DNA of 64,000 nucleotides. It comes from Spirochaetota bacterium. GTDB lineage: Bacteria > Spirochaetota > UBA4802 > UBA5368. Shown piece by piece: positions 29,173 to 42,569 of the stretch. The stretch is taken from the NCBI GenBank assembly GCA_004297825.1, contig SCSX01000033.1, positions 62,001 through 126,000 of the forward strand, read 5' to 3'. The notes below the pieces were generated by a model that saw only the letters and a list, made by a program, of their open reading frames with translations, did not search any database and was not told the origin of the DNA. The position numbers and the translations under genes are program-made. How positions within the stretch are numbered: position 1 is the first letter of the stretch; each line of letters begins with the position of its first letter.

Positions 29173-32112
29173 TTACTTACGGGCCGGGCGCGATCGCCTC
29201 CATTCGGACGGCGTCATCCCGGCCAGCTTCAGGAAGGTCTTATTGAAGGTGCGCAGGTTTTCAAACCCGACGTTGAAGGCGATGCGGGTGATCGTGTCGT
29301 GCGTCTCCTCGAGCATTTGTTTCGCCTTCTCGACGCGCAGGCCGTTGATATACTCGTCGATTCGCTTCCCCGTGATCTGGTTGAAAGCGCGCGACAGGTG
29401 ATCCGCCGATATACCCACGGCGGCGGCCATGCCCTCTCGCGACAGGTCCGCGGTGAAGTTCGATCGGATGAATTCCTCGACTTGCGCGACCTTGTCCTCG
29501 GTCGAGGAGCTTATCGGGCTCGCCCCCCCGGTTTTTTCCTCCAGGCGTTTATAAAGGTCCGCGGTCGTTCTTATGAGCCGGTCCCGGAGCGACTTGAGCT
29601 CCAGCTGTGCCTTGATCCGCGCCAGGAACTCGCTCGAGTTGAAAGGCTTGACGATGTAATCGGTGGCGCCCTTCTCAAAGCCCTCGATCTTCATCGCGAT
29701 ATCGGCCCGCGCGGTTAAAAGGATGACGGGAATTCCCTCGTAGCCTTTCTCCTCACGGATGCGTTTCGTGAATTCGTAACCGTCCATTTCCGGCATCATG
29801 ATATCGGACACGATGATATCGGGGGGATCATCCAGGGATTTCAACAGGGCCAGTGCCGTTTTCCCGTTTTCCGCGGTGAGGAACCTGTACTTGTGCGAAA
29901 CGATATCCGACAGGAAGGTCAGCATCTCTTCATTGTCATCAACAAGGAGCACGCAGGGTATGGTTTCATCCGCCAGTGAAACCCGCTGATTGTGTGAGGG
30001 ATCGGTTCCGGAACCCGGATCGCTCCTGAAATGAATTATATCCTTACAGGAACCGGATTCGGTTCCGGAATTTCGCTCTTCTTCATCGCCCGGTGCGTCC
30101 GCCATGTCCGTGCCGTCCGCGGCGGCTTCCGATCCGATGGGAATCGTGAGGTAAAAGGTGGAGCCCTTACCGGGCTCGCTTTCCACGCTGACATCCCCGC
30201 CATGGAGGCGAGCGATCTCCCGGGTCAGTGAAAGCCCGATACCCGTGCCCTCGTATCTCCTGCTGGAAGAAGAATCGACCTGGGAAAAACGCTCGAATAT
30301 AAGCGCGTGCTGGTCGGCGGGAATGCCGATGCCCGTGTCGTTGAACTCGACAGTGAAGGAATCATCATGCGCAGCGAGCTTCACCGTGATCCTTCCGCCC
30401 TGGGGCGTGAATTTCATCGCATTGCCCAGGAGATTGTACACGGCCTTCTCGAAAAGCCCGCGGTCCACGAAGGCGGTAAGACCGTTCGTAGTATCTATAA
30501 AGGAAATCGTCTGCCCCCTGGCTGTCGCCCCTGAATGCAGGTTCGCCACGGACAACTCCAACTGCCTCGCGATATCGGTTCTCACCGGATGCAGCGCCAT
30601 CCTTCCGGATTCCATCTTCGAGAAATCAAGCAGGTTGTTTATCAGGCTCAGCAGGCGCCCGGCGTTATTGTATAATTTATGCAGAAACGATTCATCGACT
30701 TTTCCCGGGGTATGGTTCCGTAATACCGACTCTACCGGCGATATGATGAGCGTCAGCGGCGTGCGCAGCTCGTGGGATATGTTGGCGAAAAAGTCCGTCT
30801 TGAGCCGGTCGAGCTCCTGGAGCTTCGAGTAGGCCTGCTGGAGCTCGCCCGTTCTCCGCTCGACCTTCTTCTCCAGATTGGCGTTCAGGTCGGCAAGCTC
30901 GTTTTTCATCGTATTGATCCTGTCGGCAAGGCCAAACGAGAACAGCGCCAGCATTCCGACAGAACCCAATTTGAAACTGAAATCGTTAATAAAAAATGAA
31001 GGCAGAAGGCCAATAATGAACGTAACCGGGAACAATCCGCCAAGCACGGGAAGGAAAACCGCAATCAGGTAAAATATGGCGGACCGCGATCCCCTCTTTA
31101 CATACAGGATAGGGACCGCGATGTTGTAGAGGCATACGATCAGGATAAACACGTTCAAGATCACTGTGTGATATTCAGGCTGCGAAACAGGCTCAAGAAT
31201 GACAGATTCCACGATCATAATGGAACCGAATGCGACGAGCGCGTTTATCTGCGTGTCGATAAAAGGCGTTTTTTCTTTCGTCTGAAGATAAGCTTTTAAA
31301 AAAAGCAGACCCGGTATCAATCCGATATAAAAAAACAATGAATGCGACCTTCTCAGAATAACGGATAGATTATCCCACACATAGTTAAAACCAGTTCCGT
31401 CAAGGGTCATGTGGATAGAACTCAGGCCGACTATTAAAAGCAGGTAATAGAAGTACGATTTTTCGCGGACCGAAACGAATATAAACAGATTATAAAGGAA
31501 CATGATGGCGAGAATTCCATAAAACATTCCCTGAAGCACGTCCACGGTCATCAGCTTCGTCATCAGATTTTTCGGAGACCACATTCGAGGAACAAGCGAA
31601 GTCCACGCCGAGTGGTATTGCCGCAAAAAATATACAGTTTCGCCGGGCGGGGTCCGGACCGGGAAGATGAACGTAACGCTGTTTACCTCCCGCTCGCGCG
31701 CGGGTGTATCGACGTAGGCGATAGATTTGAAACGACCGTTTTCACCGGGGTAGTAGAATATCAATTCATCCGCAAAGACGAAATCATTTTCAAGATACCA
31801 TTCCAGTTCTCCACCCGAGTCGTTGCGTACCCGGATTTTAAGCCATATGGACCGGTCTCCGGAGTTGACAATCTTGATGCTTTCGCTCTTTGTGAATTTT
31901 GGTGAAACCCGGTCACTCGATATTTCGTCAATGGCGAGGCGGTGAGTGGTATCGACATAGTACTCCACCTCCTTCCCGATATGCCTGCCGTCGAGATTTT
32001 CCGGTAATACTACCGTTGAATTCAAGGCATAGCTGCGTGGAGGGGAAACGGAAAGAATGGTCAAGATAATGATGATTAACGCCGGTATGGTGTTGTTAGG
32101 AAGCCTGGACAT
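29173..32112 (-). CDS. Hybrid sensor kinase with AraC output (7TMR-DISM)
   Basis: A roughly 979-residue one-protein two-component system. In order: signal peptide and periplasmic 7TMR-DISM extracellular domain (to about residue 170), seven-helix 7TMR-DISM region (about 170-365), HisKA with H-box FFANISHELRTPLTLI, HATPase with NAMKFTPQGG and GTGIGL, a receiver domain with VLLVDDNEEM and VSDIMMPEMDGYE, and a C-terminal AraC HTH (ADHLSRAFNQITG, then ITRIAFNVGFENLRTFNKTF). It senses an outside ligand and controls genes directly. The start is ambiguous: ATG 32112 gives a clean signal peptide but has a weak ribosome-binding site; ATG 32196 is possible. Targets may include the SDR cluster or the lipoprotein genes (inference). 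Confidence 0.9.
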   Translation of the reverse strand: MSRLPNNTIPALIIIILTILSVSPPRSYALNSTVVLPENLDGRHIGKEVEYYVDTTHRLAIDEISSDRVSPKFTKSESIKIVNSGDRSIWLKIRVRNDSGGELEWYLENDFVFADELIFYYPGENGRFKSIAYVDTPAREREVNSVTFIFPVRTPPGETVYFLRQYHSAWTSLVPRMWSPKNLMTKLMTVDVLQGMFYGILAIMFLYNLFIFVSVREKSYFYYLLLIVGLSSIHMTLDGTGFNYVWDNLSVILRRSHSLFFYIGLIPGLLFLKAYLQTKEKTPFIDTQINALVAFGSIMIVESVILEPVSQPEYHTVILNVFILIVCLYNIAVPILYVKRGSRSAIFYLIAVFLPVLGGLFPVTFIIGLLPSFFINDFSFKLGSVGMLALFSFGLADRINTMKNELADLNANLEKKVERRTGELQQAYSKLQELDRLKTDFFANISHELRTPLTLIISPVESVLRNHTPGKVDESFLHKLYNNAGRLLSLINNLLDFSKMESGRMALHPVRTDIARQLELSVANLHSGATARGQTISFIDTTNGLTAFVDRGLFEKAVYNLLGNAMKFTPQGGRITVKLAAHDDSFTVEFNDTGIGIPADQHALIFERFSQVDSSSSRRYEGTGIGLSLTREIARLHGGDVSVESEPGKGSTFYLTIPIGSEAAADGTDMADAPGDEEERNSGTESGSCKDIIHFRSDPGSGTDPSHNQRVSLADETIPCVLLVDDNEEMLTFLSDIVSHKYRFLTAENGKTALALLKSLDDPPDIIVSDIMMPEMDGYEFTKRIREEKGYEGIPVILLTARADIAMKIEGFEKGATDYIVKPFNSSEFLARIKAQLELKSLRDRLIRTTADLYKRLEEKTGGASPISSSTEDKVAQVEEFIRSNFTADLSREGMAAAVGISADHLSRAFNQITGKRIDEYINGLRVEKAKQMLEETHDTITRIAFNVGFENLRTFNKTFLKLAGMTPSEWRRSRPARK

Positions 32113-32380
32113 TTTTTGGTTCGGTGCAAGGAAATATCCATCTCCTTTGCACACCGGTCTAGTGGCAGCCCCCAAAGCAAAAAAGTCAAGGAACATTCAC
32201 GCGTCACCCGAAATCCCGCATTTGCGCGAAGACAATGAATCCTTCTCCCGTGGTCCATATTCTTCGTGATTTCAGTTGACAATACCGTCTTCGGCGGTAT
32301 GCATAGAGGTGTTCGATATTCTGGATGGACTAAGTCCCGGTTGAAACACATAGATAATCAAAGATGATTCGGAGGTCTCA

Positions 32381-33214
32381 ATGTTTGAGGACATGAAAGG
32401 AAAAACGGCCCTCATCACCGGGGCCGGCAAGCGCAGCGGCATGGGGTTTGCGATCGCGGAAAAGATGGTATCGTATGGAACCAACGTCATCATCGCCGAC
32501 CTCGGCATACAGGACGAAGCGAGCGCGGTAAAGACGGCGCCCGCGGAGGAAATGGAGGAGATCGCCCGCCAGCTCTCGAAAAAGTATTCCATTAAAGCCA
32601 AAGCGGTGCATCTCGACGTGACCGATCCCGGCTCGGTTGAATCGATGGTTGAGGAGGTAAAACGCGAATTCGGCAGCGTGGACATCCTCTGCAACAACGC
32701 CGGCGCGGCCTTCGGTGTTCCCAGTCCCATTCATAATTACGACGAGACCAAGTGGCTTAAAACGATCGACGTGAACCTGAACGGAACCTACAGGGTTTCC
32801 AGGGCAGTGCTTCCCCTGATGCTGGGCAGGCCGGGAAGCATCGTGAACACGGCGTCGCGGGCCGGCAAGTTTCCACCGATCCTGAACGGCGCCTATGCGT
32901 GCGCCAAAGCCGGCGTGATCATGCTTACGAAGGTCATGGCTAAGGAGCTCGCGGGGGCCGGGATCAGGGTGAACGCAATCTGTCCGGGACAGATCCACAC
33001 GGACCTGCTTGACTGGCAGCTCGACCTCGAAGCGAAATTCTTACAGACGACTATCGACGCCCGCATGGAGGAGATGGCGAAGGAGATACCCTTACATCGA
33101 ATAGGCACGGTCGGAGAGGTAGCGGACCTGGTTCTGTTCCTTGCCTCGGACGCGTCGAGGTTCATGACGGGCCAGGCGGTCAATATAACCGGCGGACAAT
33201 TAATGGAGTTATGA
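32381..33214 (+). CDS. Short-chain dehydrogenase/reductase
   Basis: A 277-residue classical SDR: cofactor motif TGAGKRSGMG near residues 14-23, NNAG near 105, catalytic Ser in NTAS and YxxxK (YACAK). The closing FMTGQAVNITGG is also typical. It oxidises or reduces an alcohol/ketone with NAD(P). It starts a three-gene cluster with a VOC protein and another SDR. The substrate is not deducible. Confidence 0.88.
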   Translation: MFEDMKGKTALITGAGKRSGMGFAIAEKMVSYGTNVIIADLGIQDEASAVKTAPAEEMEEIARQLSKKYSIKAKAVHLDVTDPGSVESMVEEVKREFGSVDILCNNAGAAFGVPSPIHNYDETKWLKTIDVNLNGTYRVSRAVLPLMLGRPGSIVNTASRAGKFPPILNGAYACAKAGVIMLTKVMAKELAGAGIRVNAICPGQIHTDLLDWQLDLEAKFLQTTIDARMEEMAKEIPLHRIGTVGEVADLVLFLASDASRFMTGQAVNITGGQLMEL

Positions 33215-33215
33215 T

Positions 33216-33689
33216 ATGAACCAGTTCGATATACATTCAATCCAGGGATTTAACCAGGTAGGCATCGCCGTGCGCGACGCGGAAGCCGCGATGAAATTCA
33301 TGGAGTCGGCCTTCGGCATCAAGCTTTTTCTCATCACGATGCCGGAAGCGAAGGCGTTTCTCAGGGGCCGCGAGGTACGCTTCGTGACCAGGATCGCGAT
33401 AGGACATGTGGGCACGGTGGACCTCGAGTTCATGGAGATACTTGAGGGTGAGCACATCGTGCAGGAGTTCCTCGACACGCGCGGTCCCGGCATTCATCAC
33501 CTCGGGATATACGTGGACGACCTGAACGCGGCCGTGGACGAGTGGGAACGAGGCGGCGCCAAGGTAGTGCAGCGCACGGCGCATCCCGACGGAATCGGCA
33601 CGGCGTATCTCGATACCGAGAAGGAGCTTGGCGCCATGTATGTTGAAATCATCCAGCTCCCGAAACCTCCCAAGGAACAGCCGTCATGA
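33216..33689 (+). CDS. VOC/glyoxalase-family protein
   Basis: A 157-residue protein with the betaalphabetabetabeta VOC fold: VGIAVRDAEAAMKFMESAFG in the first module and GPGIHHLGIYVDDLNAAVDE in the second, with His and Glu candidates for metal binding. The pattern is like methylmalonyl-CoA epimerase or a glyoxalase-type enzyme. The stop of the first SDR is 1 nt upstream, and its own stop overlaps the second SDR by 4 nt, so the three are cotranscribed. Confidence 0.82.
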   Translation: MNQFDIHSIQGFNQVGIAVRDAEAAMKFMESAFGIKLFLITMPEAKAFLRGREVRFVTRIAIGHVGTVDLEFMEILEGEHIVQEFLDTRGPGIHHLGIYVDDLNAAVDEWERGGAKVVQRTAHPDGIGTAYLDTEKELGAMYVEIIQLPKPPKEQPS

Positions 33690-34486
33690 AGGAAAAAAAA
33701 GTCATCCTGATTACCGGGGCCACCAGGGGCATCGGCTATTCGCTCGCCGTCGAGCTTGCGACGCGCGGCCATCGCGTTTTCGGCGCGGGCAGGTCGTGGC
33801 AGGTCGACGTTCCCTTCTCGAAAATCACCCTGGACGTGACCAATGACGATTCGGTACAGCGCGGTGTGCGGGCGGTGCTCGAGGAGTGCGGGAGGATCGA
33901 CGTGCTCGTCAGCAATGCGGGAATCAGCAATTGCGGCACGGTGGAGGATACTGAGCTATCTATTGCCGGGGACGTCTTCGCCGCGAATTATTTCGGGATG
34001 GTTCGGGTCATCCGGGCCGTGCTCCCGTCCATGCGTGGACGGAAAAAGGGAACGATCGCATGCGTGAGCTCCGCCTCGGGGAAGATCGGAATTCCGTTCC
34101 AGGCGCATTACGCCGCGAGCAAATACGCCGTGGAGGGATTTGCCGAATCGCTTTCCCAGGAGCTTAAATCCCTGGGAATACGCGTTTTGATCCTGGAGCC
34201 CGGGGACGTGGGAACTTCGATCTGGAAGCAGACGAAACAGGCGGACGCATGCGTGCCCGACTACAAGCCCGCCCTGGATCGTTTTCTCGCGGTAAAGGAT
34301 CGTGAGATGGGACCCGGCGCCGATACGCCGGAGCGCGTGGCCGTCCGCATCGCGAACATCATCGAATCGGGGACGACAAGGCTCCGTCACCCGGTAGCGC
34401 GGGGCGCCGCGTTTATCCTGGCCGCGCGAAAACTGCTGCCCGACCGGATATTCCTGCGATTGGTGGCTAATAACTACAAGCTTTGA
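33686..34486 (+). CDS. Short-chain dehydrogenase/reductase
   Basis: A 266-residue SDR with TGATRGIGYS near residues 10-19, SNAG, catalytic Ser in SSASG and YxxxK (YAASK). The C-terminal part (LEPGDVGTSIWKQ) and length fit the classical type. It overlaps the VOC gene by 4 nt and ends the cluster. The SDR-VOC-SDR order suggests a small degradative or fatty-acyl pathway, substrate unknown. Confidence 0.87.
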   Translation: MKEKKVILITGATRGIGYSLAVELATRGHRVFGAGRSWQVDVPFSKITLDVTNDDSVQRGVRAVLEECGRIDVLVSNAGISNCGTVEDTELSIAGDVFAANYFGMVRVIRAVLPSMRGRKKGTIACVSSASGKIGIPFQAHYAASKYAVEGFAESLSQELKSLGIRVLILEPGDVGTSIWKQTKQADACVPDYKPALDRFLAVKDREMGPGADTPERVAVRIANIIESGTTRLRHPVARGAAFILAARKLLPDRIFLRLVANNYKL

Positions 34487-34599
34487 TGGCGGCGTTACTA
34501 TATTTAAAAGACTGATAGTCTCAGCGGACTTGGAAGTCCAAGCAGATTTCGAGCATTAGCATCTCGTTCCCACATGCCAATGCACAAATCAAGGAATAG

Positions 34600-36387
34600 T
34601 TATAATTTATTAGATGAAAAAAGCGTAAGTAATAAATCAAGCTTCGCTTTAATTTCTACTGATAAAGTAGATGGCTCGATTAATTCAATTAATGAATGCA
34701 ATTCTCCTTTTCTTAGCATCATGGGTTCTTTTGTGGAATCAGATAATCTACGAAAATATTCCTCTGCAAAATCACTTAATTTAATTCTGTCTGTCTTTGT
34801 TTCCCAAATCAATCTAGACACATCTTTATCTGCTTTTTGATATGCACTAAAATCCTCGACACTCCCTTCGAACAAACGCTCTTTGATGAGAATGTTCATA
34901 ACCTCTTCAATAACTTCATGATCTTGATTGTTGAAAAGATTTGGTTCCGCATGCCTACTTAACGCGTAATGCTTCAATAAATCCGGTGTAATGAAATAAT
35001 TCTCAGCTTCATAACGTCGCCAGAAGACTATTTGAAAATCAACCTGTTTGTAATCTTGTTTGTTCCGACCATCATTGTCAAGTATTGCTAAGCCATGTAA
35101 ATTTGGAATTAATTTTTTCAATGCATTAAAATGATCCTTGGGAGAAATCCCAAATCCTCCTTCAACACGCTCTAATTCGCTTTCCAAGGTTGATTCCGGA
35201 TGTGTATCCCTTACATAATAAACATTAATTTTATCATCCCACACCGCAGCAACTGGATGGGACATTCGCTCAGCAAGCGCTCGTAACATATCCACATCAG
35301 TTGTACCTTCAACGTAAAGCACATAACCTCGATCGCGAGCTTTTACATAATGCTCCGCTCCATAATTTTTTAGTGTTTCTCTAATAGAACTCTTCGATGC
35401 CAGTCCATCAATCGAACCGTTTAGGATTAGGGTCAAATTATTATCCAAGGCCTCATCAAGAACAACTTCAGAATGAGTAGCCATGATTGCCTGTGATTTA
35501 TTTAATCGTGCAATTTCGCGTAATAATATGTAAATTTGACGTTGTCGTAAGATTTCGAGATGTGCATCCGGCTCATCGATGAGCAAGACACTTTTCTTAT
35601 GGGAAAACAGATAAGAAAATAGAAGCAGTAATTGTTGAAATCCTCGGCCAGCCATTGCGATATCCAAAGGTTCACTTACTTCAGGTTCTTTATAGGTTAA
35701 AGTAACATCCCCTCTAACTTCATCTTCCATCGGGGTTGCCACTTGAATGGAAAATAAGCGCTGCATCGTATCCACAATCCACTTCCAGTCTTCTATCGAG
35801 TTGCGATAAACCGAAAGACATAAATTTCTTAATACTTCTGCCGTGTCACCTTGTCCTAATAGAACGTTTATTCTCCCAGGTTTCAATACAGGCTCTTCTG
35901 TGACCAACCCTGACATTGGGTACAATAATTCAACATTAATAGAAGCTGCATATTTTAAAAAATCATTGTTATTTATAACTGAATCATCTGGAGTACAGTA
36001 TATTAATTCATCTCCTTGGAACCGAAATTTCATCCGTAATGGAACAATATCTCCTAACCACAGAAGGCCAAGGGTTACTGTCATATAAATATTTTCCTTT
36101 CCCGTGCTGACCCGTGTATTGTGCCAAAAGTACTTGGTTCTTTTTACCGGGACAGATACAATGCTAAGGCGATTCAACGCCGCCGCAGCTCTTTCACGCG
36201 CAGATGAATCTCCTTTAAGAGAATACCAGGTTTTAATTGCTTGGGACCATAACGCAATGGCTTGGATGACGCTAGTTTTCCCGCAGTTATTTGGCCCAAT
36301 CAAAACAGATGGATGATCTAGGTCTATTCTTTGTTTTTCGCCGAATAGTTTAAAATTTTCTATTTCTACATAGAAAAAATGCCGCAT
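34600..36387 (-). CDS. OLD-family ATPase with TOPRIM-type nuclease half
   Basis: A 595-residue protein in markedly AT-rich DNA. Walker A GPNNCGKTS is near residues 31-39, Walker B SVLLIDEPDAHLE and the downstream ATHSEVV complete an ABC/SMC-like ATPase. The C-terminal half contains VLYVEGTTDVDML, then AILDNDGR and WRRYEAENYF, which fit a TOPRIM-like nuclease of the OLD (overcoming lysogenisation defect) family. Known OLD proteins act in phage defence, alone or with a helicase (Gabija). No helicase gene adjoins, so class 1-like solitary use is likely. Its base composition and codon use differ from both sides, pointing to horizontal acquisition. Confidence 0.82.
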   Translation of the reverse strand: MRHFFYVEIENFKLFGEKQRIDLDHPSVLIGPNNCGKTSVIQAIALWSQAIKTWYSLKGDSSARERAAAALNRLSIVSVPVKRTKYFWHNTRVSTGKENIYMTVTLGLLWLGDIVPLRMKFRFQGDELIYCTPDDSVINNNDFLKYAASINVELLYPMSGLVTEEPVLKPGRINVLLGQGDTAEVLRNLCLSVYRNSIEDWKWIVDTMQRLFSIQVATPMEDEVRGDVTLTYKEPEVSEPLDIAMAGRGFQQLLLLFSYLFSHKKSVLLIDEPDAHLEILRQRQIYILLREIARLNKSQAIMATHSEVVLDEALDNNLTLILNGSIDGLASKSSIRETLKNYGAEHYVKARDRGYVLYVEGTTDVDMLRALAERMSHPVAAVWDDKINVYYVRDTHPESTLESELERVEGGFGISPKDHFNALKKLIPNLHGLAILDNDGRNKQDYKQVDFQIVFWRRYEAENYFITPDLLKHYALSRHAEPNLFNNQDHEVIEEVMNILIKERLFEGSVEDFSAYQKADKDVSRLIWETKTDRIKLSDFAEEYFRRLSDSTKEPMMLRKGELHSLIELIEPSTLSVEIKAKLDLLLTLFSSNKL

Positions 36388-36727
36388 TGTATTTTCCTAA
36401 TAACATTAATCCACTAATTAAGCCATCGCTTCCCAGTCAAAAAGCACCGGGTAAAGGCATCATAATCTACCGCGGCAATCAATTGTAAAGCCCGTTCACT
36501 GGGCAAACGAGCTACTTATCACTTCATGTATCGTATATAACGTTTATAAAAAGTCAATTCATAATAGTCGAAGTCTTTTAATAGAGATAAAGAAATAATG
36601 GATTTGGGACAGGAAAAAGATTGGAGCAAAGGTGCGATCATTCAATATTTAAGCTCAAGCAATTCCTTCCATCCCCTACTCTTACAGATGCGCCTGAAGG
36701 CCCGGCATACACAGAGGTTGAATGCCG
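36388..36727. other. AT-rich flank of the OLD-family gene
   Basis: No gene is evident. The stretch changes from AT-rich to the local GC-rich composition around 36650-36720, which marks one edge of the inserted segment. It carries GCCC-GTTCACT-GGGC (about 36489-36503) and the probable promoter below. Confidence 0.5.
36530..36557 (-). promoter_or_regulatory. Possible promoter of the OLD-family gene
   Basis: Read on the minus strand: TTGACT (36557-36552), a 16-bp spacer, TACGAT (36535-36530), about 140 bp before the ATG. It is a reasonable but not perfect sigma-70 match in AT-rich DNA, where chance matches are common. Confidence 0.35.
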
Positions 36728-37537
36728 TTATTCGAAATACCTAACCGCGTTCCTGAAAATCGCGAGTCCTTCCCCTTCCTCCGGGATTTCCCGGCCTTCA
36801 CGGCGCGCCTTTTCACGAAGCAGGGTCCAGTCTTCACGGTGGTAGAAGAGAATGTGCCGTTCGGGGTGCGGCATCATGCCCATTCGTCTGCCCGTGGAAT
36901 CGCAGATGGCGGCGACGTCACCCATCGAACCGTTCGGGTTAAAGGGGAACTCGCCCGCCGCGGGGGCGCCGTTTGACCTGGAATAGCGCATCGCCACGAG
37001 CTTCTCTCGCTCGAGACGCTCGTACACGGCGGGGGGTGCGTAGAAGTTCCCCTCGCCGTGCGCGACCGGTACATGGAGGGCGCCCATTCCCTTTGTGAAG
37101 ACACAGGGGGAGGCAGCCTCTATCGCGAGGTCCACCCATCGGCATTCGTAGCGCGCGCTCGCGTTGTGCTCGAGCGCGACCTCCGCCAATTCCATCGTTC
37201 CCGAGAACGCGGGCACCAGGCCCAGCGCGACCATGACCTGAAAGCCGTTGCAGATTCCCAGCATCAACGTGTCACGCGCCGCGAAGGCGGCGACCTCTTC
37301 CCGGAGGTTGCTTCGAATGCGGTTCGCGAGCGCCTTCCCGCTCCCGGTATCGTCCCCATAGGCGAAGCCCCCGGGAAAGACGATCACCTGGAACCCGGCG
37401 AGCATCGCGGGCGTTTCGATGATATCGTTTATGTGCACGATGCGCGCGTTCGCGCCCGCGCACGCGAAGGAGTATCGGACCTCCTCGTCGCAGTTGATCC
37501 CGTAGCCGGTGAGCACGAGAATCGTCGGTTTGGCCAT
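36728..37537 (-). CDS. purQ: FGAM synthase glutaminase subunit PurQ
   Basis: A 269-residue class I glutamine amidotransferase. The start region is KPTILVLTGYGINCDEEVRY; FPGGFAYGDD and the nucleophile motif LGICNGFQ contain the catalytic Cys, and the late MMPHPERHI holds the His/Glu pair. It supplies ammonia for conversion of FGAR to FGAM in purine synthesis. GAGGGTG precedes the ATG, and it lies 11 nt downstream of purL, so the two are one operon. Confidence 0.93.
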   Translation of the reverse strand: MAKPTILVLTGYGINCDEEVRYSFACAGANARIVHINDIIETPAMLAGFQVIVFPGGFAYGDDTGSGKALANRIRSNLREEVAAFAARDTLMLGICNGFQVMVALGLVPAFSGTMELAEVALEHNASARYECRWVDLAIEAASPCVFTKGMGALHVPVAHGEGNFYAPPAVYERLEREKLVAMRYSRSNGAPAAGEFPFNPNGSMGDVAAICDSTGRRMGMMPHPERHILFYHREDWTLLREKARREGREIPEEGEGLAIFRNAVRYFE

Positions 37538-37548
37538 GCTGTTCACCC

Positions 37549-40530
37549 TCAAAAATTCCCGAAGCGTCCCCTGTATGAGGAGAGGCATTCTTCGATCGCG
37601 ACGCGCGCGAGCGCGCGTCCCGCCTGCCCGATCTCGATCACGGGCGCTTCCGTCACCTCGCCGATACGCGCGCACGGAAATCCCGTCATTGCCGTTTCGA
37701 ATTCCGCGGCGCGGGCCGGGTCAACGGAAACCAGCATGCGCCCCTGCGATTCGGCGTAGAGAAGCGTATCGGCGCGCGGGCTTCCCTCCGCGGGCAGCCT
37801 TGTAAGCTCCACGCGTGCGCCCAGCATCCCCGCCATGGCGGACCTGGCGAGCGCGACCCCGAAGCCGCCCCGCTCGAGCGAAATGCCCGATGCGATGAGA
37901 CCCGCGCGCAGCACCGCCGTGTACGCGCGGTAGAGCGCCGCGAACGAGGCCGCGTCCACGCCGGGCACCGTTCCCCGGAAGAGCGTCCCTCCCGCGCGCC
38001 GCCCCGCGAGCATGGCGTATTCGCTTCCCGCGGTCTCATCGCGCGTAACGCCCAGGACATAGAGCGCGTCGCCGGCGATCTTGAAATCCATCGTCTGGCA
38101 CGCGCGCACGTCGGGAACGACGCCGAACGACGAAATGAGCAGCGTGGGCGGGACCGATATCTTCACCGGCGCGAACTTCTCATCGTAGCCCTTGAAATCG
38201 TTGTACATGCTGTCTTTCCCGGAGATAAACGGCGCGCCGTACGCGATCGCGTAATCGTAGCACGCGCGCGCGGCATCCTTGAGCTGGGAAAGCCGCGCGG
38301 GGTTGTCGGAATCGCACCAGCAGAAGTTATCGAGGAGCGCCATGCGCTCGAGGGTCCCTCCCGCCGCGACGGCGTTGCGGATAGCCGTGTCGATGGAACA
38401 GGCCGCCATGAGATACGGATCGAGCTCGCTGTAGGACGGGTAGAGCCCCTGTGAGAGCACCACCCCCTTCATGGAATCCAGCACCGGGCGCACGACCGTC
38501 GCGCTCCCGTTCACCCTTCCCTTCCCCTGCAGCGGTTTTATCACGGAGCCCGCCTGCACCTCGTGGTCATACTGCGTCGATATGAACTCGAAGCCCGCGG
38601 TGTTGAGGGTGCCCGTCATCTCGACGAAAAGCCGCGCGTAGTCCGGGGGCTCGGGGAGGGGCGCGGTGCCCTGCGGGCGGGCGGGGGCCGATGTACTCAG
38701 GTTCTTTTTGGGGAGCCCGTTGTGCAGGAAATCCATGTCGAGGTCGAACACGGTTTTCCCGTTATGCGATACTATCCCGCGCGGACCGGCCGTGAACTCG
38801 CCGATAACCGTCGCCTCGACGCCGCGCTTCTCCATGAGCGCGATGAACTCGCCGCACGTCCCGGCGGGCACCGACAGCGTCATGCGCTCCTGCGATTCGC
38901 TCACCCAGATCTGCCACGGGGAGAGCCCGGGGTACTTGAGCGGAACCTTTTCGAGGTCCACGCGGAAACCGCCCGATTCCTTCGCCATTTCCGCGACCGA
39001 GCAGGAGAGCCCGCCCGCGCCGTTGTCGGTTATGGATGTGTAGAGGCCGCGGTCGCGCGCCTCCTTGACGATGGCGTCCGAAAGTTTTTTCTGGGTGATG
39101 GGGTCCCCTATCTGGACCGCGGTCGCGGGGCTCCCGGAGGAGAGCGCCTCGGACGAGAAGGTGGCGCCGTGTATGCCGTCGCGCCCCACGCGTCCCCCCA
39201 CCATGACGATGCGGTCGCCCGGCATAGCCTTCTTCACGGTGGAGGCGCGCCCGTTCACCGTTTTTGGTATGAGGCCGATCGTCCCCACGAAAACCAGCGG
39301 CTTCCCCTTGTAGCGGTCGTCGAAGTACACGAAGCCCTGCGGCGTGGGGATGCCGGAGCAGTTCCCGCCCACGTTCACCCCGTTGATCACCCCCTCCATG
39401 ATGCGGCGCGGCGGAAGGAGTCTCGATTCGGGATTTTTTTCGCGGAAGAGCGGGCTCTCGTCGAAGGGATCGGCGAAACAGAAGCCGTAGCGGTTGGCCA
39501 CGGGCTTGGAGGCCATGCCGAACCCGATCGCGTCGCGGTTCACGCCCACGATCCCGGTGATCGCGCCCCCGAACGGATCGAGTGCGCTCGGGCTGTTGTG
39601 CGTCTCGACCTTGTCGGCGATCACGTAGTTCTCGTCGAAGTCGATCCCGCCGGCGTTGTCCTCGAAGACGGATACGCAGAAGTCGTCGGCGCCCTTTTCG
39701 CGGCGGATCCGTATCGTCGCCTCGCGGATGTAGCGGCGGAAGATCCCCTCGTCAAGCTCGTCCAGCTTCGCCGCGAAGATGGTGTGCTTGCAGTGCTCGG
39801 ACCAGGTCTGGGCGATGGACTCGAGCTCCACGTCGGTGGGATCGCGCTTTTCGATTTTCGTGAAATAGTTCCGTATCGCGTTGAGCGACAGCATGTCGAG
39901 CGCGAGGGGGCCCCTGCGTCCGCCGTCCGTATCGGGTATTCCCTCCTTCCCGAGTTTCAGGAGCTCCTCGTCGGGGAGGTCCAGGCTCACGGTGTCCGCC
40001 TGCGCGCGTTCACGGATGTGCACCACCGGGAGTTCCCTCCCCATACCCCCGGCGCCGATATACTCCTCGCGGGTGAGCACCTTCATCCGCTGTATGAGCG
40101 GGTTCGAAAGCTCCAGGCCGGCCCTCTGCGCGTCCGCGGGACCCAAAGCGCCGTCCAGGAAAAACGTCGTGGAGGTAAAGACCGCGGTCTCCGGGTCCAG
40201 GTGCGTCCTGAACATGTCCTCGATGATCTCGCGGACGGTGTGCGACACGTTGTCAGTCACGCCCGGGAGAAAGCCGATCTCGACGGCGAAGGTGAACCGC
40301 GCGGGGACGTACGGCTCGTTCACGCGATAGTCCTGGGTAACGGGGCTCGCGAGCGCCCCCGCGACAAGTTCGATGCGCGAATCGTCGAGCGGCGCGTTCA
40401 CCAGGTAGTTTTCGGTGATGCTCACGCCGTCCACCGGGAAGCCAAGGCGTTTCAGCTTGCCCAGGAGCGTCCGGCTGCGGGTGTCCTCTATTTTATAGAA
40501 AACCTCTATGCGGAAACTGGCGGTATCCAT
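37549..40530 (-). CDS. purL: FGAM synthase PurL with PurS-like N-terminus
   Basis: A 993-residue enzyme. An N-terminal PurS-like domain (about residues 1-85, FRIEVFYKIEDTRSRTLLGK) is followed by two AIRS-type halves, with TWSEHCKHTIF, KVETHNSPSALDPFGGA, VGGRVGRDGIHGAT and ISGKDSMYND. It catalyses the ATP-dependent amination of FGAR using ammonia from PurQ. It is larger than small PurL (about 740) and smaller than the single-chain PurL with a fused glutaminase (about 1,300), so the form with PurS fused and PurQ separate fits. GAGG precedes the ATG at 40530. Confidence 0.92.
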   Translation of the reverse strand: MDTASFRIEVFYKIEDTRSRTLLGKLKRLGFPVDGVSITENYLVNAPLDDSRIELVAGALASPVTQDYRVNEPYVPARFTFAVEIGFLPGVTDNVSHTVREIIEDMFRTHLDPETAVFTSTTFFLDGALGPADAQRAGLELSNPLIQRMKVLTREEYIGAGGMGRELPVVHIRERAQADTVSLDLPDEELLKLGKEGIPDTDGGRRGPLALDMLSLNAIRNYFTKIEKRDPTDVELESIAQTWSEHCKHTIFAAKLDELDEGIFRRYIREATIRIRREKGADDFCVSVFEDNAGGIDFDENYVIADKVETHNSPSALDPFGGAITGIVGVNRDAIGFGMASKPVANRYGFCFADPFDESPLFREKNPESRLLPPRRIMEGVINGVNVGGNCSGIPTPQGFVYFDDRYKGKPLVFVGTIGLIPKTVNGRASTVKKAMPGDRIVMVGGRVGRDGIHGATFSSEALSSGSPATAVQIGDPITQKKLSDAIVKEARDRGLYTSITDNGAGGLSCSVAEMAKESGGFRVDLEKVPLKYPGLSPWQIWVSESQERMTLSVPAGTCGEFIALMEKRGVEATVIGEFTAGPRGIVSHNGKTVFDLDMDFLHNGLPKKNLSTSAPARPQGTAPLPEPPDYARLFVEMTGTLNTAGFEFISTQYDHEVQAGSVIKPLQGKGRVNGSATVVRPVLDSMKGVVLSQGLYPSYSELDPYLMAACSIDTAIRNAVAAGGTLERMALLDNFCWCDSDNPARLSQLKDAARACYDYAIAYGAPFISGKDSMYNDFKGYDEKFAPVKISVPPTLLISSFGVVPDVRACQTMDFKIAGDALYVLGVTRDETAGSEYAMLAGRRAGGTLFRGTVPGVDAASFAALYRAYTAVLRAGLIASGISLERGGFGVALARSAMAGMLGARVELTRLPAEGSPRADTLLYAESQGRMLVSVDPARAAEFETAMTGFPCARIGEVTEAPVIEIGQAGRALARVAIEECLSSYRGRFGNF

Positions 40531-40817
40531 TGCAGTCCTCGTTAGCCGGATTGTCTGCAAATGCGCGGTAAAATGTCCAGAATTTTTCCGGATGCACGCC
40601 TCATGATTTCGCAATCATTCACGCATGCATGCGTATCGGCCCCCAAACCCCTTTAAACCCGATTATGTCTCCCCCATCGCCTTTTTCCATCTCCCAATCC
40701 GATAAATTTTGCAGAAAATCGTTAACTAAAAATTTACCCGAAAGAGACATAATTTTGTGGAAATTTGACGGGAGGCTGGGTATATTATCCGAAAATCGTT
40801 ACCAGGAAGGGTAAATC
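40531..40817. other. Intergenic region upstream of purL and the small Cys gene
   Basis: No gene is seen. The half next to the small protein is AT-rich and contains TTGACG followed by TATATTAT with poor spacing, so a promoter is likely but not resolved. The other half is GC-rich leader of purL. Confidence 0.4.
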
Positions 40818-41027
40818 ATGACTCTGGATGACTGTAAAAACTGTGACAAGCACGACTATTCCGGGAACGGGTTCGTTATATGCAAATACTGGAACATGAA
40901 CGAGCAAAGGATCACCAGTTCCGGGAAAAACGACGTCGTGTACATTGTCTCCTGCCCCAGGGAAAACGACCTGGCGATCGACTATAAGAACGACTATCCC
41001 GCGCGCTGGAACAAGAGTTTGTATTAA
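40818..41027 (+). CDS. Small Cys-rich protein, probable zinc binder
   Basis: A 69-residue protein with CKNC at residues 6-9, Cys at 22 and Cys at 46, enough for a tetrahedral zinc site. The surface is polar and no membrane segment is present. AGGAAGGG precedes the ATG. It is convergent with the AAA_14/DUF4143 gene (stops 6 nt apart) and lies at the edge of the accessory segment. Family unknown. Confidence 0.65.
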   Translation: MTLDDCKNCDKHDYSGNGFVICKYWNMNEQRITSSGKNDVVYIVSCPRENDLAIDYKNDYPARWNKSLY

Positions 41028-41033
41028 TCATAA

Positions 41034-42164
41034 TCAGGCGATAAATGACCGGTAATTACCCCGTGTAACGCACTCGTACACGGCATCGGGATACATTTCA
41101 TTCCAGCCCTTAGGGGGTTTTGTCCTGTCGGCGCTCCATTTGATCTCGTACCCGAAAAGCCTTCCCTCCCGTTCCTCGACAAAATCAATCTCCTCTTTCG
41201 CGTAGGTACGCCAGAAATAATTGTTGGAAATGATGCCCCTGTACTCCTGCTTTTTTATTCTTTCGGAGATGATATAGTTTTCCCAGAGGGAACCGATATC
41301 ATCGCGCAGCGCGATCGGATTATAGTTGTTTATCAGCGCGTTCCTCACACCGTTGTCCCAGAAAAAATACCGGCCGTTTTTCACAATCTCCTTCCGGCTG
41401 TTTCTGCTGAATCCTGAAAGCCTGAAAATAACGAAGGCCTTCTCGAGAAGATCGAGATAGCGCTCGGCGGTATTCTTACTCATTCCCAGAGTGGTCCCGA
41501 TCTCCGTAAACGAAACATCCCTGCCGATCTGGAAAGCGAGAAGGCGAAGCATGCGCGCGATTTTATCGGAGTGGCGGACCCCATCGAGTTCCAGGATGTC
41601 CTTGTAAAGATATGAACTTACCAGCTCTTTCAGGTAGCGCTCCCTCATTCTATTGTCTTCGCCCACAACGGCTTCCGGATATCCTCCATAGATGAGCCTT
41701 TTTTCCAGGTTGGCCTCTGTCTGCGGAGGATTCTCCGTGACCATAATCTCCATCTGGGACAGCGGAAACAATCGCACGGTGTGTTTCCTGCCGGTAAGCG
41801 GTTCCCCCGTCGATCGCGCCAGCTCGAAGCTGGATGATCCCGTCGCCATCACCTTGATGCCGGGCATATGGTCGACGATCAATTTGAGGGCCATGCCGAT
41901 ATCCCTGATTTTCTGGGCCTCATCGATCACCAGAAGCCCCACGGTCCCGATTGCATCCTTGAGCTTCTCTATTGAATGGACGGCGAACGATTCCCTGACG
42001 AAAATATCGTCCCCCGTCAGCAGCAGGTAGGGCTCCGAAACGCTCTCAAGATATTTCCCGATCAGGGTCGTTTTTCCCGCCCGCCTGGGCCCATAAATGA
42101 TCAACACCTTGTTGGGCAGCAGATACTCATGAATACTGCGCAGAAGTTCGCGGTCAATATACAT
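41034..42164 (-). CDS. AAA_14/DUF4143 ATPase
   Basis: A 376-residue protein: Walker A GPRRAGKTT at about residues 24-32, Walker B LLVIDEAQKI, sensor-like VMATGSSSFEL, then a winged-helix-like region (FTEIGTTLGMSKNTAERYLD) and the DUF4143 C-terminus with EIDFVEEREGRLFGYEIKWS, which has a nuclease-like Glu/Asp/Lys pattern. Such proteins are widespread in accessory DNA and are usually of unknown role. A good promoter lies upstream, and the toxin-antitoxin pair follows on the same strand further on. Confidence 0.88.
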   Translation of the reverse strand: MYIDRELLRSIHEYLLPNKVLIIYGPRRAGKTTLIGKYLESVSEPYLLLTGDDIFVRESFAVHSIEKLKDAIGTVGLLVIDEAQKIRDIGMALKLIVDHMPGIKVMATGSSSFELARSTGEPLTGRKHTVRLFPLSQMEIMVTENPPQTEANLEKRLIYGGYPEAVVGEDNRMRERYLKELVSSYLYKDILELDGVRHSDKIARMLRLLAFQIGRDVSFTEIGTTLGMSKNTAERYLDLLEKAFVIFRLSGFSRNSRKEIVKNGRYFFWDNGVRNALINNYNPIALRDDIGSLWENYIISERIKKQEYRGIISNNYFWRTYAKEEIDFVEEREGRLFGYEIKWSADRTKPPKGWNEMYPDAVYECVTRGNYRSFIA

Positions 42165-42203
42165 TGGATCTCCAGATAATTAATACCGTCAGTATATTGA
42201 CTA

Positions 42204-42232
42204 AATATAATGGAATTTGGTCAGTTTGTCAA
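42204..42232 (-). promoter_or_regulatory. Good sigma-70 promoter of the AAA_14 gene
   Basis: Minus strand: TTGACA (42232-42227), 17-bp spacer, TATATT (42209-42204), about 40 bp before the ATG at 42164. Eleven of twelve consensus bases match. A short near-palindrome (AATAC/GTATATT) lies between the -10 and the start. Confidence 0.65.
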
Positions 42233-42272
42233 CTGAAATATGTACTATAGCGGTTTAATACGCATATATACA

Positions 42273-42569
42273 TCACCGTTCAAAACGTTTACGAACCCAT
42301 GAAGGGTCTCTTCTGCAATCGAGAACCGCATAGACAATAATCGTTTCATCATCAATTGAATACTAAATTGCAAAAGGAAACCGTTTGGCAAGCATACGAT
42401 AATATCTATTATAGACAACAGAATGGATGCCACAATAGATAACCAGAGAATCTATGTCGGAGAAGAGTGAATCTACAAAATATGACCCGAGACCCGCCTG
42501 TTGATTTTCATAGAAGCTGAATCCATCAACAATATCCCGCGACGCCGATGGAAGGATGGCGATCTTCAT
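42273..42569 (-). pseudogene. RelE/ParE-family toxin with internal amber codon
   Basis: The reading frame from 42569 gives a ParE/RelE-type toxin (MKIAILPSASRDIVDGFSFY, then NRYYRMLAKRFPFAI) that meets TAG at 42363-42365. The frame continues in the same phase past the stop with YSIDDETIIVYAVLDCRRDP and SWVRKRFER to a TGA at 42273-42275, exactly the expected C-terminal half. The amber therefore replaces a residue that is usually Tyr in this family, and one base change (TAT or TAC to TAG) explains it. The toxin should be inactive unless the codon is read through. Confidence 0.85.

Follow-up and report, generated by a model that had tools for sequence, protein, structure and literature searches.

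The window, by which we mean the whole 64,000-nucleotide stretch analyzed here, lies on contig SCSX01000033.1 (C33) of a Spirochaetota bacterium whose genome comprises 4.89 Mb in 96 contigs. On its reverse strand, positions 34600..36387 hold an intact open reading frame (ORF) that begins with ATG and encodes 595 amino acids, with an OLD-superfamily ABC ATPase at approximately residues 1 to 335 followed by a TOPRIM-plus-helical nuclease at approximately residues 342 to 595. An AGGA resembling a ribosome-binding site, read from the printed sequence, stands 7 nucleotides 5' of the start codon (36395..36398, reverse strand). The ORF shares the strand of purQ, reads away from it, and begins 340 bp past it; the SDR gene on its other side is convergent. 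Seven neighbors were scanned (29 to 42 kb of the window), and they encode an SDR, a glyoxalase-like protein, a further SDR, PurQ, PurL, an AAA_14/DUF4143 protein, and a hybrid histidine kinase. As the earlier note had remarked, none of the seven is a helicase (Gabija would have the UvrD-like GajB), and none is a reverse transcriptase. A search of Rfam with window positions 32000 to 42500 (E up to 1) returned no RNA family.

The composition of this ORF is foreign to its surroundings, just as the earlier note had described. Its GC content is 0.378, compared with 0.607 for the SDR gene, 0.626 for purQ, and 0.647 for purL, and its GC at third codon positions is 0.31, compared with 0.66 to 0.86 in six other window genes. 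When GC was scanned at the ORF's own length, the minimum for the window (0.376) started at position 34591, and the next lowest value was 0.454. The 340-bp gap between purQ and the ORF (36388..36727) is likewise AT-rich (GC 0.397, climbing near 36700) and is probably the promoter region together with one edge of the foreign segment; the 113-bp gap to the convergent SDR gene (34487..34599; GC 0.442) forms the segment's other edge. Promoter-like hexamers were no more frequent in the 340-bp gap than expected by chance, and counts of promoter and terminator patterns around the gene did not rise above those in shuffled sequences. Other AT-rich patches of the window, with GC of 0.44 to 0.49, lie at 26.5 to 28 kb, near 31 kb, and at 40.5 to 43 kb.

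Pfam recognizes the ATPase half of the protein through AAA_21 (E 8e-22, 79.1 bits) and AAA_15 (E 1.2e-19, 71.7 bits), and neither a Pfam model nor a PADLOC model matched the C-terminal half. The same holds for Pfam across the 81 members of our alignment, in which only the ATPase was detected, save for a weak OLD-like_TOPRIM match in two; when the 81 C-terminal halves were searched separately, OLD-like_TOPRIM matched three, again weakly. Because Pfam is silent in this region, the assignment of a TOPRIM fold, which the earlier note had proposed, draws on motifs, fold, and relatives, and all three uphold it. An AlphaFold model of the full-length protein (pLDDT 90.7) has as its first-ranked Foldseek match the class 1 OLD protein of Thermus scotoductus (6p74; E 3.7e-13), and Septu PtuA, GajA, and retron Eco8 are also among the 50 Foldseek matches listed. 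VIA rows for this model cover the ATPase half alone, and the C-terminal 254 residues were also modeled separately (pLDDT 91.9). By VIA, the top row for this half is AriB of the PARIS system (8ux9_A; Z 10.8, 5.2 Å, 214 residues aligned, 11% identity), and a second AriB structure reaches Z 10.1 (8v46_D). Lower values were obtained for the Burkholderia (Bp) and Xcc OLD proteins (Z 6.8 to 7.9, with Bp OLD at Z 7.9, 4.1 Å, and 165 aligned residues), Eco8 (6.7 to 6.8), and GajA (5.1 to 6.0), against background rows that fall below 5 except for one archaeal protein at Z 7.0. Foldseek with the same half places Xcc OLD (E 1.1e-3) slightly ahead of AriB (E 2.2e-3).

Sequence profiles add to this picture. 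Among the 81 C-terminal halves, PADLOC found AriAB in 21 (best E 4e-7), AriB in 11 (best E 6e-5), and GajA in one. Profile alignments by hhalign with P2 Old (E 1.7e-4) and YbjD (E 2.8e-6) run from the C-terminal half of the ATPase through the first TOPRIM motif. A search of PDB sequences with the C-terminal profile returned two chance matches and no relative. DUF4435 (PF14491), the Pfam model of the PARIS nuclease, is absent from the window protein, matches three of the 81 C-terminal halves weakly (best E 0.025), and is found nowhere in the entire genome of this bacterium, although the same search was positive in 4 of 14 control genomes. The OLD-type reading of the earlier note, which had suggested comparison with GajA and class 1 OLD, therefore stands as far as the general ATPase-TOPRIM plan is concerned, but the nuclease half lies nearer to PARIS AriB than to GajA/class 2 OLD.

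The active-site motifs are all present, as the earlier note had asserted, and conservation was counted in an alignment of 88 rows made up of the window protein, the best 80 of 387 relatives, and seven relatives from its own phylum. Walker A reads GPNNCGKT (residues 31 to 38; 36274..36297, reverse strand, as for all motifs given here), with K37 in 88 of 88 rows, and Walker B with the D-loop reads LLIDEPDAHLE (residues 268 to 278; 35554..35586), with D271 and E272 in every row. The first TOPRIM motif is E360-G-T-T-D364 (35296..35310; E360 in 88 and D364 in 87 rows), the second is D437-N-D439, the DxD motif (35071..35079; D437 in 88 rows and D439 in 39), and the third is W-R-R-Y-E460-A-E462-N-Y (34996..35022; E460 and Y464 in 88 rows and E462 in 87). 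D439, the second aspartate of DxD, is thus the one exception to near invariance. The window protein's own clade retains it in 39 of its 41 rows and the other clade in 0 of 47, a distribution that needs two steps on the 88-row tree and places the window protein in the half of its protein family with a complete DxD. In Bp OLD, metal A is bound by E400, D455, and D457 and metal B by E404, T506, and E508, with K562 in addition, according to PMC6755086. By motif order, E360, D437, D439, D364, E460, and E462 would correspond to E400, D455, D457, E404, T506, and E508, respectively.

Relatives of the window protein were found by genome searches and by scans that used the alignment as the query. Scans with the single protein yielded no relative in the collections of genome contigs and viral contigs, and tblastn of plasmids yielded none. 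With the alignment as the query, 387 relatives appeared in genome contigs, of which the best 80 were retained, and 24 loci were retained from viral contigs, of which just two were full length (31 to 32% identity). Carriers are thinly scattered: 9 of 392 genomes in its own phylum, its own genome included (E up to 1e-10), and, in sets of genomes centered on three other carriers, 13 of 399, 16 of 392, and 11 of 387 (E up to 1e-60). Relatives that are 50 to 62% identical to the window protein are spread over many phyla. The tree of the 88 rows omits broken copies (in G057, and the second copy in G079) and a more distant second copy in G370; it places the window protein in a 29-row clade (support 97) whose members are 52 to 62% identical and come from Planctomycetota, Verrucomicrobiota, Chlorobiota, Pseudomonadota, Acidobacteriota, Gemmatimonadota, and others. 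Identity of this degree over several phyla within one clade is only intelligible through cross-phylum transfer. Moreover, at 68 of 76 loci (four of the 80 were dropped because their flanks were short) the GC content of the gene lies below that of its flanks, compared with 72 of 246 for control genes.

Turnover is visible as well. Two genomes of the same phylum carry broken copies (L031, 250-2002; L032, 1806-2698), which represent turnover by decay. In Poribacteria, five loci (L113, L122, L125, L129, and L135) show the gene in a constant position with the same neighbors, and there the copy has apparently settled. Another genome that carries a member of the protein family also has an AT-rich ORF of 529 amino acids with GC 0.26 in surroundings of approximately 0.58 (L026, 1056-2645).

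Neighborhoods of the relatives fall into restriction-linked and solitary kinds. The order hsdM-hsdS-[gene]-hsdR occurs in L056, L062, and L069 and in part in L083 and L085; the neighbors are of the Eco57I restriction-modification type, with a methyltransferase, in L057, L099, L100, and L111, and Eco57I-type also in L092, with MmeI in L066 and ResIII in L076. Restriction neighbors were checked with Pfam for L056, L057, L066, L076, and L092. The operons of L027 and L028, read from gene order and sequence, are what we take to be the DUF499/DUF3780 type. Altogether, 14 of the 80 genome-contig loci (the best 80 of 387) are restriction linked, which with L027 and L028 makes 16 of the 88 tree rows. 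Some of the linkage seeds were taken from the neighborhoods themselves (L066, L092, and L057), and Pfam later confirmed these as MmeI, Eco57I, and Eco57I/N6_N4_Mtase, respectively. The count excludes weak or self-seeded matches (AlbA-like, SMC-like, and helicase-like), the defense-looking operons of L029 and L030, and L105, L124, L128, L131, and L134, which had only such matches or a match lying over 5 kb away. The 16 linked rows require at least 15 changes of state on the tree, and recruitment into restriction operons has therefore been repeated many times. Nevertheless, with the seeds used, 64 of the 80 genome-contig loci lack a restriction gene, and the link is accordingly frequent rather than general. 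Housekeeping genes are the neighbors elsewhere, for instance trpE and trpG on either side (L075), metH (L060), hisC (L059), recJ with lolC/E (L091), pyrG (L074), modE (L071), and amgK (L067). The description of a solitary OLD-type gene in the earlier note accordingly holds for the window copy, which stands alone, but not for several close relatives, which adjoin hsdS/hsdR, Eco57I, or MmeI genes.

These neighborhoods bear on whether the window gene is an orphaned accessory of restriction-modification, that is, an anti-restriction guard that is inert without its partner or depends on a distant type I system of the host. Such a system is present on the same contig approximately 90 kb from the window gene (C33:1-6724; L164), with an HsdR of 955 amino acids, an HsdM of 523 amino acids, and an HsdS-like frame, and together with the 16 linked rows it lends the idea some appeal. 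However, the HsdS-like frame of that locus is cut by the contig end, the majority of copies are solitary and keep all their motifs, and the constant Poribacterial position in five loci suggests that the gene functions alone; we judge an orphaned accessory distinctly unlikely. Within the same locus (L164, 1-6724), a SEC-C-type ORF sits between HsdM and the HsdS-like frame, both the ORF and the frame having been named by reading the sequence.

A DNA-degrading role of the strict class 1 type also has to be weighed. A solitary gene of this kind, like Thermus OLD or P2 Old, would degrade or nick DNA through its TOPRIM domain and would not attack tRNA. The standalone setting of the window gene agrees with it, as do the rank of Thermus OLD as the best full-length Foldseek match, the profile alignments with P2 Old and YbjD through TOPRIM motif 1, and the retention of DxD in the window's clade. 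Weighing the other way are the closer resemblance of the nuclease half to AriB, both by structure and by the PADLOC models that match relatives, the frequency with which relatives do not stand alone, and the other clade of the protein family, which lacks the second aspartate of DxD. On balance, we regard a strict class 1 DNA nuclease as rather unlikely.

Comparison with other genomes of the same GTDB family (G001 to G007) places the window gene in a changeable setting. Neither a position conserved in all relatives nor ordinary composition, which the earlier note had named as evidence against an island, was seen: the gene is AT-rich, and at E up to 1e-10 all seven of these genomes lack a relative. 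G003 and G007 gave Walker-type matches at 5e-4, too weak to count as relatives. In G002, G004, G005, G006, and G007, a lipoprotein gene lies within approximately 2 kb of purQ and is followed by flagellar genes; G003 has a similar order with spurious ORFs in between, and G001 has an AAA_14/DUF4143 gene directly after purQ (L044, 2785-4377). In the window, the lipoprotein/flagellar block lies near 4.4 to 6.8 kb, approximately 30 kb from purQ. Relative to most genomes of the GTDB family, some 30 kb of extra DNA thus separates purQ from this block (window 6.8 to 36.7 kb). No empty site is visible at the window copy, since the DNA past purQ has been rearranged and the other genomes lack the 30-kb neighborhood; the same rearrangement puts the window gene at a variable edge. 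An AAA_14/DUF4143 ATPase gene also lies on the other side of purLQ in the window (41034-42164), as one does right after purQ in G001, and purLQ appears to have a variable spot at each end.

An OLD-type ATPase need not serve in defense, and the archaeal protein Cran1, claimed to be a regulator or cell cycle factor, offers a precedent (PMC12796447). For the window gene, we regard a role of this kind as very unlikely, considering its foreign composition, its restriction-linked relatives, and its patchiness (9 of 392 genomes of the phylum, its own included, and none of the seven in its GTDB family).

How such a gene may move is hinted at by direct repeats that flank some of its relatives. A repeat was scored when the upstream flank matched the downstream flank at E up to 1e-5 within approximately 600 to 700 bp. 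Such repeats flank 10 of the 84 loci that could be tested in a first sample and 2 of the 220 genes used as controls (Fisher p 7e-5). Because the criterion was set after repeats had been noticed in this sample, and because the control set is small, the excess is a lead rather than a rule. In a second sample, flanks were long enough at 36 of the 37 loci listed, and one of these 36 had a repeat (p 0.37 by itself, 3e-4 when pooled with the first sample); from the 48 loci L170 to L217, 11 had been left out, namely four repeats of known loci and seven partial or incomplete matches. The repeat-flanked loci are mostly metagenome bins. Their repeat sequence differs from locus to locus, which indicates that it derives from the target, and inspection by eye revealed no terminal motif shared by these copies. 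For the window copy itself, the longest exact match between 700-bp flanks is 10 bp, and a comparison of 1.5-kb flanks gave no repeat at E up to 1e-3.

The clearest case is L120 (9039-11226), where a direct repeat matching at 48 of 48 bp corresponds to the start of rlmH, and the layout is an rlmH remnant, then 2.09 kb with the family gene, then a complete rlmH. The insert has a GC content of 0.489, compared with 0.619 around it. A same-genus locus, L219, retains the empty site, the one demonstrated for the protein family: rsfS and rlmH are adjacent there with one copy of the repeat, identity across the junction is 91.8%, and the piece inserted in L120 finds no match. At L210, the family gene is enclosed by a tRNA-Ser (GGA) gene (1077-1164) and, at approximately 3650, a repeat of that gene's 3' end, an arrangement like that of classical att-site integration. 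Taking the clean case of L120 and L219 together with nine more copies of the 84 and one of the 36, one could picture the family as a minimal mobile unit of approximately 2.1 kb, consisting of a promoter region and one nuclease gene with no recombinase, that would insert at gene ends with target duplications of 20 to 90 bp after a staggered break made by its own TOPRIM nuclease, a homing-like spread of a defense gene. We consider this picture very unlikely. None of the papers listed by the literature searches made deals with OLD genes that spread singly or duplicate their target.

We propose, as a moderately probable account, that the window gene is a horizontally acquired, self-contained, one-chain abortive-infection gene in which an OLD ABC ATPase would act as the sensor and an AriB-like TOPRIM domain as the effector. 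The ATPase part would oligomerize and hold the nuclease silent. A phage trigger, possibly an anti-restriction protein by analogy with PARIS, whose triggers are of the Ocr type, would free the nuclease, which would then cut host RNA (tRNA, as AriB does) or DNA. Catalysis would use two metal ions, one bound by E360, D437, and D439 and the other by D364, E460, and E462, and growth would stop ahead of phage release. We infer both the activity of the protein, which the earlier note had expected from its intact motifs, and its anti-phage function; the trigger, substrate, and oligomer named here are predictions of the same kind. The PARIS-like side of this account draws on the first rank of AriB by VIA, the AriAB and AriB matches of PADLOC in relatives, the conserved catalytic residues, the relatives in restriction operons, and the type I restriction locus that the host has on this contig. 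Against it stand the C-terminal half of the window protein itself, which has no PADLOC or Pfam match, and the full-length Foldseek search, which favors class 1 OLD.

Comparison with known systems sets the window gene among OLD proteins, whose classes are defined in PMC10568477 and PMC12796447 and whose tree, as published in the latter, contains 11 uncharacterized clades. The protein has the hallmarks of the superfamily, an ABC ATPase with Walker A and B and a C-terminal TOPRIM with E and DxD. It shares with class 1 OLD (P2 Old, Thermus scotoductus OLD, and YbjD) a solitary ATPase-TOPRIM gene of similar length with no adjoining defense genes, its neighbors being housekeeping or metabolic genes and, past purL, the AAA_14/DUF4143 gene. 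In contrast to that class, many of its close relatives lie within restriction operons, and OLD-like_TOPRIM sees the C-terminal half weakly and in few members (3 of 81). For E. coli YbjD, PMC13261556 describes the Toprim domain as dispensable for the phenotype. With GajA of Gabija (class 2 OLD), the window protein shares the two-domain plan, and GajA is among the top fold matches, but no GajB adjoins the window gene in the seven neighbors scanned, and the nuclease half reaches only Z 6.0. The reverse transcriptase and noncoding RNA of class 3 (retron) OLD are absent from those neighbors and from the Rfam results for positions 32000 to 42500, respectively.

TOPRIM-linked OLD-ABC ATPases are described in PMC12839542 as recurrent auxiliary effectors of BREX and related systems; relatives L027 and L028 share the gene order of these BREX/DUF499-centered effectors, but the window gene stands alone. 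PARIS (AriA-AriB, class 4 OLD) is closest in the nuclease half. As described in PMC9122126, ariAB is found in 5.2% of surveyed genomes and is called at 32 bits for AAA_15 or 27 bits for AAA_21 together with 27 bits for DUF4435; single-gene fusions exist (PMC9122126; PMC12409363), and AriB is a tRNase (PMC12409363). The window protein shares with PARIS the AAA_21/AAA_15 ABC ATPase, well above those scores at 79.1 and 71.7 bits, a TOPRIM with a helical domain and an AriB-like fold, AriAB/AriB matches in its relatives, and association with restriction systems. It differs in being one chain, in its remote relation to AriB (11% identity at 5.2 Å, even with Z 10.8), and in having no DUF4435, for which reason it is not filed as PARIS.

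The gene and its relatives thus add a cross-phylum family in which the ATPase and an AriB-like nuclease form one polypeptide from one gene, and which escapes the DUF4435-based rule for PARIS. Since its members stand alone in some genomes and within restriction operons of at least five kinds in others, the family offers a direct way to test guarding against solo action of OLD/PARIS effectors, and its repeat-flanked copies pose the question of how single defense genes move without a recombinase. The window gene would act like a one-chain PARIS/OLD effector and falls cleanly into no formal class; we place it in the OLD superfamily as a standalone gene whose nuclease half is PARIS-like.
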